From contig NZ_JAAAKV010000003.1 of the NCBI RefSeq assembly GCF_009905725.1, positions 1 to 64,000 on the forward strand: 64,000 nt of DNA. The letters are read 5' to 3'. Under the pieces are notes generated by a model. The model was not told the DNA's origin. It did no database searches and saw only the letters and a program-made list of their open reading frames with translations. A program made the position numbers and the translations under genes. Positions 14,488 to 37,607 of this stretch are shown here, piece after piece (positions within the stretch are counted from its first letter, which is position 1; every line of letters starts with the position of its first letter). Origin of the DNA: Emticicia sp. CRIBPO (lineage in GTDB: Bacteria; Bacteroidota; Bacteroidia; Cytophagales; Spirosomataceae).

Positions 14488-16371
14488 TCACAGGAATTTC
14501 AGCTCTATGCGGCGGTTGAGCTGACGGTTTTCTTCCGAATCGTTTTTAACCAGGGGTTTGGTTTCTCCAAAACCTGTGGCAATGAGGCGTTCTGCCCCTA
14601 CGCCCTTGGTTTGCAGGTATTTAATCACCGACTGGGCCCTCATCCTCGATAGGTTCAGGTTGTCGGTCTCATTCCCGATGTCGTCGGTATGTCCTGAGAT
14701 TTCGATTTTGACTGAAGCATTCTTTTTGAGCAGCTCGGTCAGTTTTTCCAGTTCAGGAATCGATTCATCTCTCAATACAGAAGAGCCACTGTCAAAAAAG
14801 ATATTGTTGAGGACTTCCGTCAGTTCTTTTTCAATCTTGTCAAGTTCCACATTCAGCAGCTTACCTTCCCAGTCTTCGTCTTTGGAAAACTTAAATCTCA
14901 GGCTTTTGAACAGATAATCAGGAGTGGACACATATATGCCGTATTCACCCTCACTTGGCAAAACAGCCATGTAATCACCGGTTACCGGATCAGACAAAAA
15001 CGTAGAGACTTTTTCGTTGGTTTTCAGGTTAACCAGCTCTATATTGGAATAAAGCGGCTTCTGGGTCTTTCTATCTGTGATATAACCTTTGAGATAATGA
15101 ATTTTATTGATCTGGACAGACAGTTGCTCCGGGATCGAAAATTCAAATAATTTCACGCTACCTGTTTTGTCTACCGAATAATAAGCCTTTTTACCGTCGG
15201 CTGTGACAAAAAGGGCCAGTTCATCATCCGCAGTATTGATCGGGTAGCCCAGGTTAACAGGCTCTCCGATGACGTCTTTCTGGGTGGTAGCCAGGTAGAT
15301 GTCAAATTTTCCCATGCCTTCCCGGCCGTTGGAAGAGAAAAAGAAGGAGTAGCCGTTGGCATGAATGAACGGGGAAACCTCATCCTGGCTGGTATTGATT
15401 TTCGGGCCGAGGTTCACAGAGGTTTTCCAGGTGCCGTCGGGTTTTAACTCACTCATCCAGATGTCTTTACGGCCAAATCCTCCGGGTCTTTCTGAGGCAA
15501 AATACAGTTTATTGCCGTCCGACGAAAGGCTGGGCTGGGAATCCCAGCTTCTGGAATTGACCGCCGGACCCAGGTTAGTCGGGGTAGACCAGCTGTCACC
15601 GGTTCTCCGGGTGATAAAAAGATCGCAACTTCCGAGCGACTCCCTGCCTTCGCAGGACGTGAACACCATGATTTTCCCGTCTGCCGAAATGGTACACGTC
15701 CCTTCATTATAAGGCGTATTGATCTGTTCTGAGATGCTTTTGGGCGATACCCAGCCTTCTTTTTTGAGTTCTGAGTAATAAATATTCTCATCGGTCTGCT
15801 CGTCGCGGGCTGTAAAAAAAATGGTACTGTTATCAGCCGTGAACACCGGGAAATACTGCTTTGATTTGAAATTAAGCACTTCAGGCAGCACCTGCGGCTT
15901 GATATTCAGCGGATTGGCAATAGCCTGAATCCCGAATTCACAGGTTCTTAGCTGCCTCGTAAGTTGCTGATAAACAATGGAATTCTTATTCGTATTCTGC
16001 AGTGAAACGTTGAGATATTTTTTTGCCTTTTCAAACTCATGGTTTTCAAGGGCCCTGGAACCCAGATAGGTGAATGCCAGGGTGTAAGCTTTATTGGCAG
16101 AGTCTTTTTCGATGACTCTCCTGTAATAATGGCTGGCATTGGCCACATCTCTTTTAGATTCATAAATCTGACCCATCCTGAAATACACTTCGGTGATGGA
16201 AGAATCCTTTCCCAGGTATTTTTTGAAATTATCCAGGGCTGAATCATAGTCGCGGTTCATGAAATCAGCCTTCCCTTTTTCAAATAAAGCAAGGGCTTTT
16301 TTATCCTGGGCCATCAGCGAACCGGACAGAAACAGGACAGCAAAAAAGAAAATGACGCTTTTGTTTATCAT
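14488..16371 (-). CDS. PorE-like OmpA-family envelope protein (TPR, PD40 propeller, CRD, OmpA)
   Basis: The 627-aa product has a signal peptide (MINKSVIFFFAVLFLSGSLMAQ), TPR repeats (about 23-150), a WD40-like PD40 propeller (about 165-400, with repeated DGNKLYFASERPGGFG-type blades), a carboxypeptidase-regulatory-like domain (about 425-490) and a C-terminal OmpA peptidoglycan-binding domain (about 510-627, GHTDD near 560 and NRRIEL at the end). This domain order is that described for PorE, which tethers the T9SS to peptidoglycan. Bacteroidota carry several such paralogues, and being near porQ (5.5 kb) supports but does not prove the role. There is no close operon partner; 240 bp separate it from trxB. 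Confidence 0.7.
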   Translation of the reverse strand: MINKSVIFFFAVLFLSGSLMAQDKKALALFEKGKADFMNRDYDSALDNFKKYLGKDSSITEVYFRMGQIYESKRDVANASHYYRRVIEKDSANKAYTLAFTYLGSRALENHEFEKAKKYLNVSLQNTNKNSIVYQQLTRQLRTCEFGIQAIANPLNIKPQVLPEVLNFKSKQYFPVFTADNSTIFFTARDEQTDENIYYSELKKEGWVSPKSISEQINTPYNEGTCTISADGKIMVFTSCEGRESLGSCDLFITRRTGDSWSTPTNLGPAVNSRSWDSQPSLSSDGNKLYFASERPGGFGRKDIWMSELKPDGTWKTSVNLGPKINTSQDEVSPFIHANGYSFFFSSNGREGMGKFDIYLATTQKDVIGEPVNLGYPINTADDELALFVTADGKKAYYSVDKTGSVKLFEFSIPEQLSVQINKIHYLKGYITDRKTQKPLYSNIELVNLKTNEKVSTFLSDPVTGDYMAVLPSEGEYGIYVSTPDYLFKSLRFKFSKDEDWEGKLLNVELDKIEKELTEVLNNIFFDSGSSVLRDESIPELEKLTELLKKNASVKIEISGHTDDIGNETDNLNLSRMRAQSVIKYLQTKGVGAERLIATGFGETKPLVKNDSEENRQLNRRIELKFL

Positions 16372-27085: not shown

Positions 27086-29698
27086 CTATTCTATCTTCAG
27101 TTCCTTTTTCCGGGTATTAAACAAACCCGCGGTATCGAGCCGTCGTTTGTTGGTCAGTTTATTGACGCCTTCCTGGGTGGTATCCCTGATCGTACCGTTT
27201 ATTTTCTGGAGTGAGTCGTTCATCATGATATTCATGAGGCTGTCGTTCAGTACATTGGCAGACTCACCGTCGCTGCTGAAACACCCGAGATAATCTTTTT
27301 CGATCTTCATCGTCGGTTTGGCAAATGGCCCCGGACTGTATTCCAGCTTTTTGTCTTTGTAGACCTGTTCCATAAACAAACCGAATATCGGCAAGGCGGA
27401 CTTACTGCCTTCTCCCATACTGCTCTTGAAGTGGATACTCCGGTCGTCGCCACCTACCCAAACCCCGCAAACGAGGTCTTTTGTGAAACCGATGTACCAG
27501 GCATCCGAGTTATTGGAGGTTGTTCCTGTTTTACCGGCTACCTGGCCGCCGTTTCTGAATAACTCTCCGTAATTAAACATTCTTCGGCCCGTTCCGCCTG
27601 ATTCTTCTATGTTGCCTCTCAGCATATATTGCATCAGGTAAGCAGACTCAGGGCTGATGGCATCCCTGGTTTTGGCGTTGAATTCAAACAGTATTTTTCC
27701 TGATTTATCTTCGATCTTAAATACGAAAATGGGTTCGGTATACTTACCTTCATTTAAAAAGACCCCGTAAGCGGCCACCATTTCGTAAAGCGATACATCG
27801 GAAGTGCCCAAACCAATGGAAGCTACTTCGTCGAGTTTGGAGGTAATGCCCAGTTTCTGAGCATATTCGACTACTTTTTTCGGAGTAGACTCAAGGGTCA
27901 GTTGGACGGCCACCGAGTTGATAGACCTGGCCATGGCACTTCTGAGGGTCATGTTGCTGTAACTGAATGTCCCGTTGGCATTTTTAGGTTGCCATATTTT
28001 TATTTCACCGTCTTCTTCGTATTCGGTGCTGATAGGCTTATCCTCCCTGCGGTCGCATGGGGAAAGGTTCAGCGGACCATCGATAGCCGAAGTATAAACC
28101 ACGGGCTTGAATGTTGAACCCGGTTGTCTTTTTCCCTGCTTAACGTGGTCATATTTGAAATAATTATAGTCAATGCCACCTACCCACGACTTCACAAAAC
28201 CGCTCAGAGGGTCAAATGCCATCATCCCGGCCTGTAAAAAGCGTTTGTAATAACGGATCGAGTCCATGTGCGACATCATCACGTCCTGGTCTCCGTCCCA
28301 CGAAAATACCTTCATTTTCATAGGTACATTCATGTATTTGGAGATAGAGTCTTTGTTGTTTTCAAATTTCGTGGCCAGTTTCCGGTAGTAGGTGGTTCTT
28401 TTAGCCACCGTATCGATGAAGCCCGGAATCTCCTCTCCACTTTCATAGGTCCATGGATTTTTGTCTTTCCACTGGTTATTGAAATCTTTCTGCAGGCTTC
28501 GCATGTGCTGCTCCAGGGCCGATTCGGCGTAAGTCTGCATCCTCGAATCGATCGTCGTGTAGATCTTCAGACCGTCGCGGTACAGGTCAATGTCCATTTC
28601 ATTGTCCTTGGCCCATTTTTCTATGAATTTCGAAAGGGCTACTTTGAAATAATTCCCCTGTCCGTCGTAAGGGTTTTCAATATTGATGTCCAGTTTTAAT
28701 TCTTCGGCAATAACTTTGTCTGCTGTTTCCTTATCAAGGTCACCGTTCAATACCATCCTCTGAATAACCGTATTCCTTCTTTTGACAGAGTTTTTCGGAT
28801 TCCTGATCGGGTTATATAAAGTGGTACCTTTCTGCAGACCTACCAGGACGGCAGATTCACCGATGCTCAGTTTGTCGGGAGCCTTGTTGAAATAGGTTTT
28901 AGCCGCGGTTTTGATCCCGTAGGCATTGTTTCCGTAATCAACTGTATTCAGATATAAAGTAGCGATTTCGCCTTTGGTAAATCTCTTTTCAAGCTCGATG
29001 GCCGTGATCCACTCCTTTGATTTGTAAATCAGGGTTTCCACCACAGGAATGTAATACAAAAGCCCTTTCATTTCTTTCCGGCGGGTATTGTACAGGTTTT
29101 TGGCCAATTGTTGTGAAATGGTGCTTCCACCCCCGCGATCGCCGCCTGAAAATATACCTACGGCCACGCTGGCCATCCTTTTAAGGTCAATGCCTGAGTG
29201 TTCGTTAAATCGCTTGTCTTCTGTCGCAATCAGGGCTTTATAAACCCACGGGGAAATTTCAGAGCTGTCAACAGGCGTCCTGTTTTCAGTAAAATATTTC
29301 CCGATCTCAACGCCGTCCGCGGTAAGGATACTCGAAGCTTCCGACAACTTCGGGTTTTGCAGCTGGTCTACACTGGGCATACCGCCGGTCAGCCACAGGA
29401 AATTGGTTTTAATCAGGAAAAGATAGATGATCACCGCAAGAATTCCTCTGAAGAAAAAGGCATAAAGGTTACGGATCACATTCCAGAACCGGCCTTCCTG
29501 GTCAAATTTGTCGTTGAATTTATACTTGGTGTTGTGATACCGGTCAGACAAAAACCTGCCGAAGGCATCGACTCTTTCTTCTCCGAAGATTTTTTTGAGA
29601 AGCCTGACAAAGAATGCCCATAACAGAGATATTTTATCAGAAATAAAGTCGGTTACCGGTTTGAATTTAGAAAACAATTCTCTAATAAAATTTATCAT
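27086..29698 (-). CDS. Class A penicillin-binding protein (PBP1A-type)
   Basis: The 870-aa bifunctional peptidoglycan synthase has an about 80-residue cytoplasmic head and one membrane anchor (about 80-97). A GT51 glycosyltransferase domain follows with catalytic Glu E160 in ATEDKRFNEHSGID, GGSTISQQLAKNLY and ITAIELEKRFTKGEI. The transpeptidase domain has GSTFKP (catalytic Ser and Lys), SIN and KTGTT motifs. The C-terminus is short and Lys/Arg-rich without a SH3 or PASTA domain. All catalytic motifs are intact. A TAATTTTG -7 box (29727-29734, minus strand) lies upstream. Confidence 0.93.
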   Translation of the reverse strand: MINFIRELFSKFKPVTDFISDKISLLWAFFVRLLKKIFGEERVDAFGRFLSDRYHNTKYKFNDKFDQEGRFWNVIRNLYAFFFRGILAVIIYLFLIKTNFLWLTGGMPSVDQLQNPKLSEASSILTADGVEIGKYFTENRTPVDSSEISPWVYKALIATEDKRFNEHSGIDLKRMASVAVGIFSGGDRGGGSTISQQLAKNLYNTRRKEMKGLLYYIPVVETLIYKSKEWITAIELEKRFTKGEIATLYLNTVDYGNNAYGIKTAAKTYFNKAPDKLSIGESAVLVGLQKGTTLYNPIRNPKNSVKRRNTVIQRMVLNGDLDKETADKVIAEELKLDINIENPYDGQGNYFKVALSKFIEKWAKDNEMDIDLYRDGLKIYTTIDSRMQTYAESALEQHMRSLQKDFNNQWKDKNPWTYESGEEIPGFIDTVAKRTTYYRKLATKFENNKDSISKYMNVPMKMKVFSWDGDQDVMMSHMDSIRYYKRFLQAGMMAFDPLSGFVKSWVGGIDYNYFKYDHVKQGKRQPGSTFKPVVYTSAIDGPLNLSPCDRREDKPISTEYEEDGEIKIWQPKNANGTFSYSNMTLRSAMARSINSVAVQLTLESTPKKVVEYAQKLGITSKLDEVASIGLGTSDVSLYEMVAAYGVFLNEGKYTEPIFVFKIEDKSGKILFEFNAKTRDAISPESAYLMQYMLRGNIEESGGTGRRMFNYGELFRNGGQVAGKTGTTSNNSDAWYIGFTKDLVCGVWVGGDDRSIHFKSSMGEGSKSALPIFGLFMEQVYKDKKLEYSPGPFAKPTMKIEKDYLGCFSSDGESANVLNDSLMNIMMNDSLQKINGTIRDTTQEGVNKLTNKRRLDTAGLFNTRKKELKIE

Positions 29699-32197: not shown

Positions 32198-32229
32198 AAA
32201 AGCCGCCGGAGGAATCCGGCGGCTTTTTT
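32198..32229. terminator. Bidirectional terminator after the ABC exporter genes
   Basis: AAAAGCCGCCGGA (32198-32210) pairs with TCCGGCGGCTTTTTT across a GGAA loop. It is a strong GC-rich stem with a T run, shared by the convergent ABC and M56 genes. Confidence 0.88.
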
Positions 32230-32246: not shown

Positions 32247-33215
32247 TTACTCGGATGCAGGAGTGAAAACAGAATGAGCCGTCCAGGTGGTTTTCAGTTC
32301 AACCTCAACAGATTTTTCCCCGGCCGGTTGGCGGGTTGCCGTAAGGTTTTTCAGCGGAAGGGCTGCCTTCTGCATTTCCTCAGGCAGCTGGTTAATGGCA
32401 GCAGCGAAAATCATCAGCATGACCACAAACGCCGGAACAGCGAACACGTACTTTGCCAGGGCGGATTTGCCGGAACGTTCCCTTTTCAACATCTGGATTC
32501 TTAACTTCAGGTTTTTGTAGTTGAAGAAAGTGTTGGCCAGGGTGTGCGGCGAAACCTGGAATTGCTGAGACAGCAAAAGCATGGCATAGTCGGCTTTTGA
32601 GGCCATGTACTTGCTTGAAACTTCGTCGGCTATAAACTCATGAACATTTTTAATCGCTATTTTATAGAGGTAAATGACCGGGTTGAACCAGCAAAAAACA
32701 GCCAGGATTTCGAAAAATATGACATCAAAAGAATGGACCTGCCTGACATGCACCAGCTCATGTTCATAAATAACGTCATTTTCGGACAGGTTTTTATCTA
32801 CGGTAATTTTCCAGAAAAAGGAAAATGCAGTACCCGGCAACTGGCCCGAACGAAGAGAGGCATCAAGTCTGAAAATATTGACCAGCAGCCTGATGGCGAA
32901 TAAGATCGCTCCACCGACATACAGAAACACCACTACAGATAAACACCAGGAGATAGTATCTTTTTCTGAGCTGACGCTGTCGAGCACCTTTCTGGTGTCC
33001 TCCGTATGAATCAAACCGCTCAGCTGCCGGGTGAATGCCCAGGACTGAACCAGTTCGGTGTTCCATACCGGGATAAGCAATGAAAGGATCGCGGAAAAAA
33101 CCAGGAATATCCTGTTATTGGTATTGTAGGTTTCGTTTCTGAGGAATAACCAGTAGAAACCAAAAAATACAACCAGGAATAGGTTGACTTGCAGAAAGTA
33201 GATGGTCTCGTTCAT
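32247..33215 (-). CDS. BlaR1-like M56 metallopeptidase (simplest of three)
   Basis: The 322-aa product shares the N-terminal layout of its two paralogues: membrane helices near 5-25, 37-52 and about 93-112, and a cytoplasmic zinc-protease with H152-ELV-H156 (EHELVH), then a VHEFIADE segment giving a further Glu ligand. A last hydrophobic helix (about 265-285) leads to a short periplasmic tail of about 45 residues with no recognised domain. BlaR1/MecR1 proteins sense antibiotics or wall damage and cleave the BlaI repressor. It lies 175 bp past the second M56 gene, in the same orientation as BlaI. Confidence 0.85.
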   Translation of the reverse strand: MNETIYFLQVNLFLVVFFGFYWLFLRNETYNTNNRIFLVFSAILSLLIPVWNTELVQSWAFTRQLSGLIHTEDTRKVLDSVSSEKDTISWCLSVVVFLYVGGAILFAIRLLVNIFRLDASLRSGQLPGTAFSFFWKITVDKNLSENDVIYEHELVHVRQVHSFDVIFFEILAVFCWFNPVIYLYKIAIKNVHEFIADEVSSKYMASKADYAMLLLSQQFQVSPHTLANTFFNYKNLKLRIQMLKRERSGKSALAKYVFAVPAFVVMLMIFAAAINQLPEEMQKAALPLKNLTATRQPAGEKSVEVELKTTWTAHSVFTPASE

Positions 33216-33390
33216 TTTCTGTTTTGTTTAAATGTTTAACGCTGTTTATTCAAAAACATTTTTAAGCAATGAAAACCCAATCCAGGGGACAGGGTTTTAA
33301 CACAATTATGAATTGTCAATTTTTATTTCATTAGGGTAAGTGCTCTTACCCCTGAAATAGCTTTTTCATTTTATCTTTTTAAGCCTCACC

Positions 33391-34770
33391 TTACTCAAGC
33401 TGAAAGAATACCGGCATGTTATAATATACCCGGACCGGAAGACCGTTCTGTTTTCCCGGTTTCCATTTCGGCATGGATGAAACTATTTTGACGGCTTCTT
33501 CGTCACATCCGAACCCTATGCCTTTTAATACATGTACATTGCCTATAGAGCCGTCTTTTTCTACTACGAACTTCAGAAAAACCCTGCCTGACACATTCGC
33601 CCGTTGAGCTGAAGCCGGATACTTGATGTTCTGATTAATAAACTTATACATTTCAGATACACCACCTGTAAACTCAGGGTTTTCTTCCACGGCTGTAAAA
33701 ATGACCTGCTTTTCAGGTACTATTTCTATCAGCTCAGGATTAGCCGGTGCAGGGGCGGCCGGTGTTTGATTATAGTGATCCGGAAAAGAAAGAGACAAGT
33801 CGAAACTGTCGCTGGGTATTTCCTCCGGCTTGGTCTTTTCCGGGGTTTCCGTCAAAACCGGGTTGTTTAAGGCCTCGCTTACTTCCCTGAGTTTGATTTC
33901 AGGGGTTTGGATCATTTCCGAAAAACGCTCAGGAGTGGTATTCCTCGCAATGGTAGCAGATGTCAGGATCAGCATACCCAGAAAAACAGGGAGAATCAGA
34001 CCGTATTTAAGCAAAGCTATTTTAGCCGAACGCTTCTTTTTGAGCATCTCTATCCTCAGTTTGAGGGTAGAGCGGTTAAAGAAATTATTAATCAATAACG
34101 TAGGTTGTGTACGGAATTGCTGAGAAAATAGCAACATAGCATAGTCGGCCTTGGAAGGAAGGTAGCTACTTGCTATTTCGTCAGCGATGAACTCGTGTAT
34201 ATGTTTAATAGAGGTTTTATAGTAATAGACAACAGGGTTAAACCAGCACACTATCCCCAGGATTTCAAAAACAAGGATGTCAAAAGAGTGGCCTTGCTCC
34301 ACATGCACCATTTCGTGTTCCATGATGGTGTCGTTTCCACGCAGGTCCTGGTCTACAAATACTTTATTGAAAAACGAAAATGCCCTGACCGAAGGATTTT
34401 CTGACCTCAGTAAACGGTCAAGTTTTAAAACATTGATCAGGAAACGCAGGGAAAAATACAAAGCCCCGGCGATGTAAATGAGTCTGGTCATTTTAAGAAA
34501 AACCCAGTCCGATGCCTGCTCAGGCCGGCTTTTGATGATGATGTCGCTCAGGTCATAGGAATAAATGATCTGGTTGGCTTCGCGGGTGATGATCCACGAC
34601 TGCACCAGTTCAGAGTTCCACAGTGGTATGGCGAACGAAAAGAACGCGGAACCTACCAGGTAGATCCTGTTATTCGTATTGAAGGTTTCTTTTCTCAGAA
34701 ATGACCAGTAAAATCCATAAAAAACGGCCAAAAACAGATTGACTTGAATTAAATAGTTGATCCAGTTCAT
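33391..34770 (-). CDS. BlaR1-like M56 metallopeptidase with TonB C-terminal domain
   Basis: The 459-aa product has the same membrane/protease block as its neighbours (zinc site EHEMVH, H152; then HEFIADE), a helix near 260-275, a Pro-rich linker, and a C-terminal TonB-like domain (about 365-459) marked by YPASAQRANVSGRVFLKFVV and MPKWKPGKQNG. TonB-C domains on M56 proteins are common in Bacteroidota but their sensing role is not settled. It lies 36 bp downstream of the third M56 gene and 175 bp upstream of the first. Confidence 0.88.
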   Translation of the reverse strand: MNWINYLIQVNLFLAVFYGFYWSFLRKETFNTNNRIYLVGSAFFSFAIPLWNSELVQSWIITREANQIIYSYDLSDIIIKSRPEQASDWVFLKMTRLIYIAGALYFSLRFLINVLKLDRLLRSENPSVRAFSFFNKVFVDQDLRGNDTIMEHEMVHVEQGHSFDILVFEILGIVCWFNPVVYYYKTSIKHIHEFIADEIASSYLPSKADYAMLLFSQQFRTQPTLLINNFFNRSTLKLRIEMLKKKRSAKIALLKYGLILPVFLGMLILTSATIARNTTPERFSEMIQTPEIKLREVSEALNNPVLTETPEKTKPEEIPSDSFDLSLSFPDHYNQTPAAPAPANPELIEIVPEKQVIFTAVEENPEFTGGVSEMYKFINQNIKYPASAQRANVSGRVFLKFVVEKDGSIGNVHVLKGIGFGCDEEAVKIVSSMPKWKPGKQNGLPVRVYYNMPVFFQLE

Positions 34771-34806
34771 ACTTCACGTCGTTATAGGTTGAGAATCGGT
34801 CAGTTA

Positions 34807-36798
34807 TTATTTAGGTTGAATAGTGCGGTTTTTTTTAGTTGTGATGACGATGACCCCGTTTTTACCTTTTTCTCCATAGATGACTGCCGATTGAGAGTCT
34901 TTGATGACTGATATCGACTGAATATCATCAGGATTCATATCTCTTATTTTAAAAGCTTCTTTTTCTACACCATCCACGATGAAAAGAGGGGGATTTTTGG
35001 CGAAATCATCATCAGGTGAGGTGATATTCATGGAATATCCGTTGCCCTGGGCAGGTCTGGCCTGGTTGGCATATCCGGTGACCCTCACCCTGACAGGTTC
35101 GTTTTTGTCGTGACTACTGACGCCCACGCCTGAGGTTGAACGCAAGGACAGAACTTTCCCTTCCTGGGGTCGTGCTGTGGTGTAAAGCCTGGAACCACCC
35201 GGTTCCACGCCGTCTACTTTCCCTCTCAGCCTGATACCTGTAATGGTGTTCGATTGAGAGTTGACGGTATTCAGGGGCTTGTTTTTATCCAGCTGGAAAC
35301 TGATCGGCATGTTGAAATAGACATCCACCGGTTTGCCGTTTTGCACACCCGGATTCCACTTAGGCATGGTAGCGACCACACGTACGGCTTCTTCATCACA
35401 TCCGTATCCGACACCCTGTAGAATCTGTATGTTTGACACAGTGCCTGTGCTGCTGACGATGAATTTGAGGAATACCCGGCCTTCTTTGTGATTTTCCCTG
35501 GCTTCTGAAGGATAAGAGATGTTCTCGGCGATGTATCTGTACATGGCGTCCTGCCCTCCCGGAAACTCAGGTTGCTGTTCCACCACCGTAAAAACGGGCT
35601 TGCTCATTATTTCAACGGAATTTTCGGCAGGACTCAGTGTTCCGGTCACCTCAGATCCCGTTTCCGGTTTGGTTAATTTTATGGTTAACTCTTTGAAGTC
35701 ACTTGTATTGACTTCTACTGTCCTGTAACCTGGGAAAGAAACTACAATGATGGCATTCACTGCTACGTCATTCATGATAAAATGACCGTTGACGTCGGTA
35801 TAGGCTCCTTTGGTTTTGTCTTTAAAAGTCACTGCAGCACCTGGCAGGGGTTCACCGGTTTCGTCTGTTACCCGGCCTTTAAGTACCCTCGTTTTATCGT
35901 TGTCGATAATGGCTTCAAACGTCGTGGCCGGCATCTCTATCAGCTCAGATATGCTTTCAGTTGAAGAAGATCTCGCAATGGTGGCAGAAGTAAGGACCAG
36001 CATGGCGATAAATACCGGAACGATCATGCCGTACTTCAGCAGGGCCGTTTTGGCAGAGCGTTCTTTGCCGAGCATCTTGATCCTCAGTTTTAAGGTGGAA
36101 TGGCTGTAAAAATGATTAGCCAGGTGTTGGGTTGGTGCGTGGAATTGTTGCGAGAAAAGTAAAAGAGCATAGTCTGCTTTTGACGTAAGATGCCTGCTGG
36201 CTATCTCGTCGGCTATGAATTCATGTATGTTTTTAATGGAAATCTTATACAGATAAACGACGGGGTTTAACCAGCAAATGATACCGATGATCTCAAAAAA
36301 GATCACATCAAAAGAGTGCACCTGCTTTCTGTGTACCTGCTCGTGTTCGTAAATGGTATCGCTGCCTTTCAATTGCTGATCTACAAATACCTTATTGAAG
36401 AATGAAAATGCTTTTACAGACGGTTCTTCAGATCGCATCAACTGGTTTAACCTGAAAATGTTGGTCATAAACCTGATCAGAAACACAAAAACACCTGCTC
36501 CGTAAATGATCATCAGTATTTGGGCCACATCCATTGAACTGGGTTCATCGGGATGGCTGCTGACGATCAGTTCGCTGAGTTCGTAGCTGTAAATAATCTG
36601 GCTGGCTTCCTGGGTGATGATCCATGACTGCACGAGCTCTGAGTTCCAGAAAGGGATCGCAAACGAAAGGAAAGCAGAAAATACAAGGTATATCCTGTTA
36701 TTGGTATTAAAAGTTTCATTTCTCAACAAAAGCCAGTAGAAACCATAAAACACAACTAAGAAGAGGTTGGCTTGCAGAAAATAGGCGATCCAGTTCAT
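34807..36798 (-). CDS. BlaR1-like M56 metallopeptidase with CRD, TonB and plug-like domains
   Basis: The 663-aa product is the longest of the three M56 paralogues. The zinc site is EHEQVH (H152), then IHEFIADE, with the same helices as the others. After the last helix it carries a carboxypeptidase-regulatory-like repeat (about 310-385, GRVTDETGEPLPGAAV), a TonB-C-like domain (about 410-500, YPSEARENHKEGRVFLKF and MPKWNPGVQNG), and a C-terminal plug-like segment (about 570-660) with PLFIVDGVEK, DIQSISVIKDSQSAVIYG and NGVIVITTKK, which matches the SusC-type receptor plug signature. It directly follows BlaI (33 bp), so it is first of the array to be translated. Confidence 0.88.
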   Translation of the reverse strand: MNWIAYFLQANLFLVVFYGFYWLLLRNETFNTNNRIYLVFSAFLSFAIPFWNSELVQSWIITQEASQIIYSYELSELIVSSHPDEPSSMDVAQILMIIYGAGVFVFLIRFMTNIFRLNQLMRSEEPSVKAFSFFNKVFVDQQLKGSDTIYEHEQVHRKQVHSFDVIFFEIIGIICWLNPVVYLYKISIKNIHEFIADEIASRHLTSKADYALLLFSQQFHAPTQHLANHFYSHSTLKLRIKMLGKERSAKTALLKYGMIVPVFIAMLVLTSATIARSSSTESISELIEMPATTFEAIIDNDKTRVLKGRVTDETGEPLPGAAVTFKDKTKGAYTDVNGHFIMNDVAVNAIIVVSFPGYRTVEVNTSDFKELTIKLTKPETGSEVTGTLSPAENSVEIMSKPVFTVVEQQPEFPGGQDAMYRYIAENISYPSEARENHKEGRVFLKFIVSSTGTVSNIQILQGVGYGCDEEAVRVVATMPKWNPGVQNGKPVDVYFNMPISFQLDKNKPLNTVNSQSNTITGIRLRGKVDGVEPGGSRLYTTARPQEGKVLSLRSTSGVGVSSHDKNEPVRVRVTGYANQARPAQGNGYSMNITSPDDDFAKNPPLFIVDGVEKEAFKIRDMNPDDIQSISVIKDSQSAVIYGEKGKNGVIVITTKKNRTIQPK

Positions 36799-36831
36799 AA
36801 AGTTAACGGGTTGAATATTTTTTTACGGGTT

Positions 36832-37200
36832 CTATTTGGCTTTCTTCATCTCCTCAATCATCTTGAGGATTTCATCTGCTTCTTTCAGGTCGATCTGCTG
36901 CTGTTTTACAAAAAATGAAACCAGGTCACCCACTGAATTCTCAAAGTATCCGTTCATTAGTTTTTCGGTGACAAATTTCCTGTATTCCTCTTTTGTTACT
37001 TTCGGGAAATACTGGTGGGTTTTCCCGTAAGGCATATGGTCAATAAATCCTTTTTGTTCCAGAATCCTGATGATGGTCGAAACCGTATTGTAGGCCGGTT
37101 TGGGATCAGGAAGTTTCTCAATCACATCTTTGACAAATCCTGTGTTTAAGTCCCACATGACCTGCATAATCTCTTCTTCGGCTTTCGTTAATTCTCTCAT
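36832..37200 (-). CDS. BlaI/MecI/CopY-family transcriptional repressor
   Basis: The 122-aa winged-helix protein starts LTKAEEEIMQVMWDLNTGFVKDVIEKL and has the recognition helix region AYNTVSTIIRILEQKGFI (about 36-53), matching BlaI. The C-terminal half is the dimerisation and cleavage domain. It is the promoter-proximal gene before three M56 peptidases, the normal layout of a bla/mec-type sensing operon, but no beta-lactamase gene is nearby, so the real target remains unknown. A palindrome between the promoter boxes upstream fits its operator. Confidence 0.92.
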   Translation of the reverse strand: MRELTKAEEEIMQVMWDLNTGFVKDVIEKLPDPKPAYNTVSTIIRILEQKGFIDHMPYGKTHQYFPKVTKEEYRKFVTEKLMNGYFENSVGDLVSFFVKQQQIDLKEADEILKMIEEMKKAK

Positions 37201-37607
37201 GGTGATTAGATTTTTGATTTACGTTAAGTAATCATTGAACAAACATAAAACTAATTATTTAGTTTTCCAACTATAATTTTAGGTAATATTCGTTCTTTAA
37301 GGGTTTATTTTATTCAACTAATTTATTTACAGACTTGTCAGGTTGCGTGAAGTGTCATTTATCAGTAAATAACACAGATAGAGAAGCGGATGATTTTCAT
37401 AGGTATAAGTACATGCTTAAAGATATAAAATTCAATACTTTTTTACACAATGCAAGAGAGGTTTATTTTTTAGCTGCTATGTAATTTAAATCTGATTTCC
37501 CGATAAGATTCAGTTATCAATACGCCTGCCCGCCTTTTTTTTCTTTCCTCCTTTGTCCATTTTCCTTTCATCCTTTTTCCTTTTCCTCCTTTGTCCATTC
37601 TCCTTCC
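37201..37607. other. Intergenic region upstream of blaI
   Basis: This 407-bp stretch is AT-rich near blaI and holds its promoter and palindrome (37240-37270). The distal end (about 37535-37605) is a pyrimidine-rich tract containing two exact copies of TTTCCTCCTTTGTCCATT, at 37544-37561 and 37582-37599 (38 bp apart). No ORF is convincing. Confidence 0.45.
37240..37270 (-). promoter_or_regulatory. Promoter of the blaI-M56 operon with embedded palindromic operator
   Basis: On the minus strand, TTG (37268-37270) is followed by a 20-bp spacer and TATGTTTG (37240-37247), an exact TAnnTTTG. A 20-bp inverted repeat, AAAACTAA (37247-37254) and TTAGTTTT (37259-37266), fills the spacer. A dimer bound there would block RNA polymerase. 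The dyad differs from the TACAnnTGTA core of Firmicutes BlaI, so this is a candidate to test. Confidence 0.6.

Follow-up and report, generated by a model that had tools for sequence, protein, structure and literature searches.

Why should a single BlaI-type repressor be followed by three proteases of the BlaR1 kind, none of which carries a penicillin-binding domain? The question is raised by a gene array of Emticicia sp. CRIBPO, located in the first 64,000 nucleotides of contig NZ_JAAAKV010000003.1 (this whole stretch of analysed DNA is called the window below). A sequence-only reading had described the array as BlaI with three tandem BlaR1-like proteases. Our analysis extended to related genomes, and the array and its operator appear to tie BlaI/BlaR1-type signalling to extra TonB genes, not to resistance. 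Bacteroidota rely on many TonB-dependent receptors and often possess several TonBs. That this repressor is tied, in several genera, to Ton genes is the surprising part, and it lies outside the stretch considered in the sequence-only reading. The array comprises the following features (bp, base pairs).

37250..37283, minus strand: paired operator CCTA-N6-TAGT-N6-ACTA-N6-TAGT, one mismatch to the consensus, 50 bp 5' of blaI
37240..37247, minus strand: promoter-like element TATGTTTG, a sequence match to TAnnTTTG
36832..37200, minus strand: blaI, a BlaI/MecI-type repressor of 122 residues (Pfam PF03965)
34807..36798, minus strand: copy 1, 663 residues, M56 with CarbopepD_reg_2, TonB_C and a SusC-like plug fragment (Pfam, NCBIfam)
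33391..34770, minus strand: copy 2, 459 residues, M56 with TonB_C (Pfam)
32247..33215, minus strand: copy 3, 322 residues, M56 with no sensor tail (Pfam)
32198..32227, minus strand: terminator-like hairpin of 13 pairs at the end of the array (terminator search)

The four open reading frames (ORFs), blaI and then copies 1, 2 and 3, are read in one direction and separated by 33, 36 and 175 bp. BlaI scored 103 bits with PF03965 (Penicillinase_R, cut-off 22.6) and matched four MecI/BlaI structure sequences (1.5e-9 to 2.4e-4), and the proteases scored 37.5, 38.3 and 48.1 bits with PF05569 (Peptidase_M56, cut-off 31 bits), which bears out the gene content proposed for the array. The layout is also common up to the zinc motif, as had been claimed (HExxH begins at residue 152 in all three proteases), and the tails differ as described. 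Copy 1 carries a CarbopepD_reg_2 domain (CRD, residues 306-376), TonB_C (426-503) and a plug (569-649), with a SusC/RagA-type NCBIfam match at 600-660 that lies under the cut-off of the model. Copy 2 has TonB_C at 381-458, and copy 3 is short and without TonB_C; the TonB_C scores of copies 1 and 2 were 70.7 and 66.9 bits (cut-off 24.6). All NCBIfam BlaR1/MecR1 models remained far under their cut-offs on these proteases, and neither Pfam nor NCBIfam revealed a C-terminal penicillin-binding sensor domain in any of them, the tails being TonB_C, CRD, plug or none. The genome of CRIBPO holds eight M56 and five BlaI matches, and several M56 per BlaI occur only at this array. The other four BlaI have one adjoining M56 match each (one of these pairs is placed at a contig end, where more might be hidden), and one M56 match has no BlaI match nearby.

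The operator led from the array to its presumed targets. In relatives, two ACTA-N6-TAGT boxes, 20 bp apart, are found 5' of blaI, and this dyad at blaI's own promoter, conserved as it is, constitutes a predicted binding site. In the window, box 2 is placed immediately upstream of TATGTTTG, with TTG at 37270-37268. The element fits TAnnTTTG, which we take to be the consensus of the Bacteroidota -7 element, and among the 46 perfect sites of relatives, 24 had TAnnTTTG 3' of box 2 (a count made without a shuffled control). A box within 250 bp of blaI accompanied all 35 BlaI proteins with the recognition helix YNT[VI]ST.[IV]RIL, versus 6 of the 23 without this helix. A slightly stricter perfect pair was detected in 150 of 200 family genomes (one match for a reversed-pattern control) and in 44 of the 295 genomes of a class-wide sample (none for the control). 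The class-wide sample yielded 28 new loci, of which BlaI accounted for 26; the other two were a MacB/FtsX-type permease (L351; loci are given L numbers and genomes G numbers) and an unrelated gene pair (L371).

Outside the array, pairs with up to two mismatches occurred in the CRIBPO genome at only two places, both of them perfect sites on contig C3, which precede tonB2 (L123, 577-1383) and tonB3 (start at 288, the gene being cut by the contig end); the blaI operon itself has the pair with one mismatch. Both tonB genes adjoin exbB-exbD-exbD-tonB1. Among 59 related genomes (CRIBPO included), 46 perfect pairs were found, 39 at blaI, seven at tonB and none elsewhere, together with 17 one-mismatch sites (eight at blaI, one at exbD, one at tonB and seven at other genes). 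A forward test with 20 further genomes, picked for several sites or as congeners of earlier matches, gave 48 sites with at most one mismatch against seven for the control. The 25 perfect sites read, out of 28 (the other three are in G109, G130 and G176), were placed at blaI (13), tonB (nine, one of them cut by a contig end), exbD, M56 and an FtsX-type permease (one each); five of these assignments (exbD, FtsX and three tonB) were checked with Pfam. By group code, the tonB link includes g1, g2, g6, g11, g21, g28 and g54, and that to exbD includes g55 (perfect) and g20 (one mismatch).

Weaker sites were also found at Ton genes. In the genus of the window, the second exbD of the exbD-tonB2 pair is preceded by a pair with two or three mismatches in G001, G003, G004, G005 and G008 (in the last, the contig end falls inside exbD2). 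G023, G028 and G030 have a single perfect box 5' of the first exbD. In the clade of M56 proteins to which the window belongs (see below), 16 of 19 genomes have a perfect box or a pair with up to three mismatches 5' of tonB or exbD, and the contig of G002 ends too early for its Ton genes to be judged. As a background, none of 652 other ORFs had a pair with zero or one mismatch and nine had one with two or three, seven of the nine being exbD (this count excludes loci fetched by the motif, ORFs divergent from blaI and duplicates among the proteins). Of 684 other ORFs, 17 had a single perfect box on their 5' side, and 14 of these belong to loci fetched for holding a box.

On this evidence we consider the link between BlaI and tonB likely, and hold this view with considerable confidence. 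It is also rather probable that the array acts as a proteolytic Ton-homeostasis circuit, in which BlaI would repress both its sensors and accessory tonB/exbD genes, the exact signal being the inferred part of this proposal.

A number of observations weigh against such a circuit. In the CRIBPO genome, the three pairs with up to two mismatches compare with five for the reversed pattern, and the single box AACTA-N6-TAGTT occurs 16 times against 42 in the control, i.e. it is rarer. Only pairs with zero or one mismatch stand out from the control, and since single boxes are rarer than the control genome-wide, the single-box claims take their weight from position and conservation only. The seven tonB sites of the 59 genomes all come from the M56 clade of the window, and within this clade the Ton genes fetched from G007 and G035 have no box; nor does TonB1 in the window's genome. 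Of 43 perfect sites in other family genomes (27 tool-picked, one per genome, and 16 hand-picked while seeking second sites), 41 were at blaI, two at M56 (G166, G214) and none at tonB; the tonB control is therefore lineage-limited. With at most one mismatch allowed, the reversed pattern matched seven times in the 59 genomes, a total equal to the number of one-mismatch sites at other genes, so that the latter are, as a group, at chance level. Perfect sites also exist at FtsX-type permeases (G176, L351) and at the unrelated gene pair (L371). An AlphaFold2 model of copy 1, built on a five-row alignment, was too poor for use (predicted local distance difference test score, pLDDT, 45.5; predicted template modelling score, pTM, 0.30), with helices at 2-25, 32-51, 89-122 and 249-275, and no match was obtained among the Protein Data Bank (PDB) chains searched with the M56 profile. 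The topology is therefore taken from Pfam and from analogy. We infer DNA binding, BlaI cleavage, topology, signal and direction of regulation.

The recurrent non-Ton targets bring in a different explanation, namely a general envelope-stress regulon, in which BlaI would control TonB/ExbD, an FtsX-type permease, an outer-membrane barrel and a TPR protein, and the tails would sense envelope damage. FtsX/MacB-type permeases stand behind one-mismatch sites in G035 and G024 (the two proteins are 61% identical) as well as behind the perfect sites just mentioned. In G005 and G033, an OMP_b-brl_3 barrel gene starts close to a one-mismatch pair; the homologue in the CRIBPO genome has a single box 76 bp upstream, and its product shares 62% and 50% identity with the G005 and G033 proteins, respectively. 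However, the perfect pairs of the first 59 genomes occurred only at blaI and tonB, one-mismatch sites at other genes were no commoner than in the control, and the G033 site sits between two divergent genes. We therefore judge a general envelope-stress regulon to be unlikely, although the permease and OMP_b-brl_3 targets may leave room for a regulon wider than the Ton genes.

The loci concerned are as follows: the permeases behind an operator with zero or one mismatch are at L163 6006-8414, L175 3515-5938, L321 2122-3999 and L351 1549-3033; the OMP_b-brl_3 proteins at L127 3657-3672 and 3749-6586 (CRIBPO), L171 3036-5945 and L168 85-2901; and TPR-like proteins behind a one-mismatch operator at L165 6020-7276, L173 4642-5901 and L307 (G010, G014 and G067; only the first was checked with Pfam, the others being judged by eye). 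Such one-mismatch sites, recurring at homologous non-Ton genes, are treated here as leads only.

The sequence-only reading had favoured a model in which three paralogous sensors feed several signals, from the cell wall or from drugs, to one integrating repressor. Two points suit this model: the three proteases, whose zinc motifs are intact and whose tails differ, are encoded in one direction behind one operator, and the gene of a penicillin-binding protein (PBP) with transglycosylase and transpeptidase domains (27086-29698, minus strand) is 2.5 kb from the array. The tails, however, are TonB domains and none is penicillin-binding, no beta-lactamase was detected among the 37 window ORFs scanned, and the paired operators of the CRIBPO genome outside blaI are at tonB2 and tonB3. 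This makes the wall or drug model very improbable, and the suggested link to wall-acting drugs found no support, the perfect operators outside blaI loci being mostly at tonB/exbD. The remark that no beta-lactamase lies nearby was correct for those 37 ORFs (a Pfam scan that did not extend to the first 8 kb or to a few further ORFs). No beta-lactamase or PBP2a gene was found under BlaI, the pairs with up to two mismatches in the genome lying at blaI, tonB2 and tonB3 only and the beta-lactamase scan covering window ORFs. Beta-lactam sensing, lacking both a sensor domain and a beta-lactamase in the scanned ORFs, was dropped as a candidate.

Are the three proteases likely to work, and how did they arise? 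H152, E153, H156 and HEFIAD (192-197) are identical in all of them; the zinc motif is intact in each, and the possibility that two of the three are dead was rejected as far as this motif goes. On the side of the substrate, Ser95-Phe96 of BlaI aligns with Asn101-Phe102, which we take to be the scissile bond of S. aureus BlaI, and at this place Ser is found in 54 and Phe in 55 of 58 BlaI homologues.

The cores of copies 1 and 2 are 67% identical, and these two share 53% and 55% with copy 3. A tree built from 85 cores places all three in one clade (Shimodaira-Hasegawa-like approximate likelihood-ratio test, SH-aLRT, 99), which is nested in a larger one comprising 26 rows of 19 genomes (support 100); 12 M56 rows with a matched core shorter than 200 residues, including three other M56 genes of the same genome (L001-L003), were left out. 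The phylogeny thus supports the tandem duplication that had been proposed. Because the cores form one clade and the zinc motifs are intact, neither an unrelated origin of the M56 domains nor a defective active site in two of them, either of which would speak against the proposal, was observed.

The idea that the array is unique was rejected, as similar arrays recur in relatives. M56 matches were present in 42 of the 59 genomes, and 60 loci were taken from the match list (best matches first, not at random) and annotated with profiles from the window proteins. Two or more cores longer than 200 residues were located beside BlaI in 16 of 61 loci (window included), and three or more in five. One BlaI with two to five such proteases recurs in related genomes, and copy numbers differ among genomes of one genus. 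The copies of L045 and L056, and two of the three in L076, also cluster by genome, which is not the case for L051, L054 and L055; grouping of copies within their own genome in several arrays indicates that duplication occurred more than once.

The clearest parallel to an array with a tail-less copy is L104 (JAIYBU010000108.1, a Cytophagaceae metagenome-assembled genome), with the order BlaI, a tail-less M56 protein of 307 residues, a TonB_C protein of 134 residues (its start, judged by eye, resembles a signal peptide) and a 739-residue M56 protein with CRD and TonB_C. It adjoins a pair of ATP-binding cassette (ABC) transporter genes with the same Pfam make-up as the pair in the window. Small TonB_C-only proteins (about 130-160 residues) occur within or after arrays in L104 (7544-7948), L052, L053, L055, L061, L071, L075 and L335. 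A tonB gene is placed 3' of the array in L049, L057, L058 and L059 (G010, G029, G014 and G036), and of these tonB genes, the ones in G014, G029 and G036 are preceded by a single perfect box.

The tails have a history of their own. The tail of copy 2 is 79% identical to TonB1, the housekeeping TonB of the same genome, and 56% identical to the tail of copy 1. Of 33 sibling pairs, 29 showed greater identity in the core than in the TonB tail (in L056, 91% versus 48%), pairs within one array not being independent in this comparison; the three genus pairs L051, L054 and L055 showed the opposite trend, with the tail more alike than the core. A DNA identity of 100 in L044 was an alignment artefact and was ignored. 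In a TonB_C tree (86 columns, row L044_8018 left out), a single clade of all sensor tails was rejected by the approximately unbiased (AU) test (p = 2.7e-6), and in two starred clades the sensor tails cluster with the TonBs of their own lineage. A sister relationship of the two window tails was not rejected (AU p = 0.24, 86 columns). The claim of tail swapping thus finds only partial support, with the core-tail comparison and the rejection of a single tail clade in its favour, but not the result for the two tails of the window itself.

These data also bear on a neutral expansion, in which the tandem copies would be redundant or decaying, the tails signal-less and the BlaI-tonB link plain co-repression without TonB sensing. 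Copy 3, which is tail-less and has the longest branch of the three (0.63), fits this explanation, as does the variation in copy number between genomes of one genus. Against it stand the zinc motif, intact in all three copies, the recurrence of a tail-less copy in L104 beside a separate TonB_C protein, and the cores, which stay more alike than the tails in 29 of the 33 pairs. Neutral expansion thus appears improbable.

In the Ton-homeostasis circuit that we prefer, BlaI would bind the paired ACTA-N6-TAGT boxes over the core promoters of its own operon and of distant accessory tonB/exbD genes. By analogy with BlaR1, the M56 proteins might cross the membrane with four helices, the zinc site falling between the third and the fourth, and expose a C-terminal tail to the periplasm. 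This tail is a TonB C-terminal domain and not a penicillin receptor, and copy 1 adds to it CRD and plug, modules of the N-termini of SusC-type receptors. The tails might contact TonB-dependent receptors in the manner of TonB. If the receptors awaiting TonB exceeded its supply, the tails would become engaged and the cytoplasmic zinc site would be switched on; the active protease would then cut BlaI near Ser95-Phe96, and more sensor and more TonB/ExbD would be made. Sensing of Ton demand by the tails is plausible, but we propose it tentatively. The same caution applies to its two components, i.e. that the TonB-like protease tail competes with TonB for the TonB boxes of receptors, unserved receptors leading to BlaI cleavage and more TonB, and that different tails (TonB_C alone, or CRD with TonB_C and plug) read different receptor classes via one repressor. 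The tail-less copy 3 may be a partner subunit or a constitutive brake. Domain content, gene order, the operator and its target genes, the helix correlation and the Ser-Phe conservation are read directly from sequence.

To our knowledge, it is an open question how Bacteroidota match the supply of TonB to demand. With its operator and targets defined and a sensor made of TonB's receptor-binding domain, the predicted circuit makes this question testable; since the repressor and its sensors appear to control extra TonB genes, the cell may gauge its own TonB need. Our results also suggest that a gene which the annotation of these genomes presents as a regulator of beta-lactam resistance can be a regulator of nutrient uptake, and resistance annotation would be affected if BlaI/BlaR1-type genes play such a role.

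Some other features of the window deserve mention. The hairpin at 32227-32198 has the strongest stem of 14 terminator-like sites in the region (5.7 expected), and the 175-bp gap 5' of copy 3 (33216-33390) contains an inverted repeat, ACAATTCATAATTGT, with no match to the BlaI box. Two plus-strand ABC-transporter genes are located between the PBP gene and the array. The segment 40316-50719 encodes a pair consisting of a histidine kinase and a LytTR regulator, HlyD-AcrB-OEP efflux genes and then an OMP_b-brl_3 protein. The product of 14488-16371 (TPR, PD40 and OmpA) is near the PorE domain set given in the consulted part of PMC12204202.

No paper among the literature matches listed gives M56-TonB_C proteins a function or connects them, or BlaI, with the control of tonB, and many of these matches were accidents of wording. 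The consulted parts of PMC5294843, PMC5613140, PMC12578637 and PMC7160235 contain nothing on this question, and neither M56 nor BlaR occurs in that of PMC12204202, which deals with TonB evolution. The excerpt of PMC10470040 reports, for Porphyromonas gingivalis, an M56 gene whose methylation changed with hemin and the BlaI-family gene next to it by locus tag, whose expression changed; these data are compatible with a nutrient link and prove nothing.

Among known systems, cell-surface signalling (TonB-dependent receptor, anti-sigma factor and extracytoplasmic function (ECF) sigma factor), which PMC7593790, in the part consulted, treats separately from BlaR1/BlaI, resembles the proposed circuit in that a periplasmic receptor contact would drive a proteolytic switch of transcription. 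In the array, by contrast, it would be a repressor that is cut and not an anti-sigma factor, the sensor bears the TonB half, and the receptor contact is presumed only.

The likeness to the TonB-ExbB-ExbD motor consists in the TonB C-terminal domain used as a tail (79% identity between that of copy 2 and TonB1). Unlike TonB, the array proteins have an M56 protease as their N-terminal half, and the GA[YF]x[LIM]R motif of the cell's own TonBs (GAYxLR) is found in none of the three, which by the available evidence are not force transducers. M56-TonB_C fusions of Bacteroidota are presumably an annotated architecture already, and those seen here in relatives have the domain order of the array.

The closest relatives are the BlaI-BlaR1 and MecI-MecR1 systems of staphylococci and Bacillus, with which the array shares the repressor family, the adjoining M56 protease, a dyad operator at its own promoter and a conserved Phe at the scissile position. 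The staphylococcal BlaI/MecI operator has a TACA/TGTA core, whereas that of the array is ACTA-N6-TAGT, with targets outside the operon that include tonB/exbD. In place of the penicillin-binding sensor of BlaR1/MecR1, the array proteases have TonB_C, CRD and plug tails or none, and up to five proteases accompany one repressor in relatives of the window.

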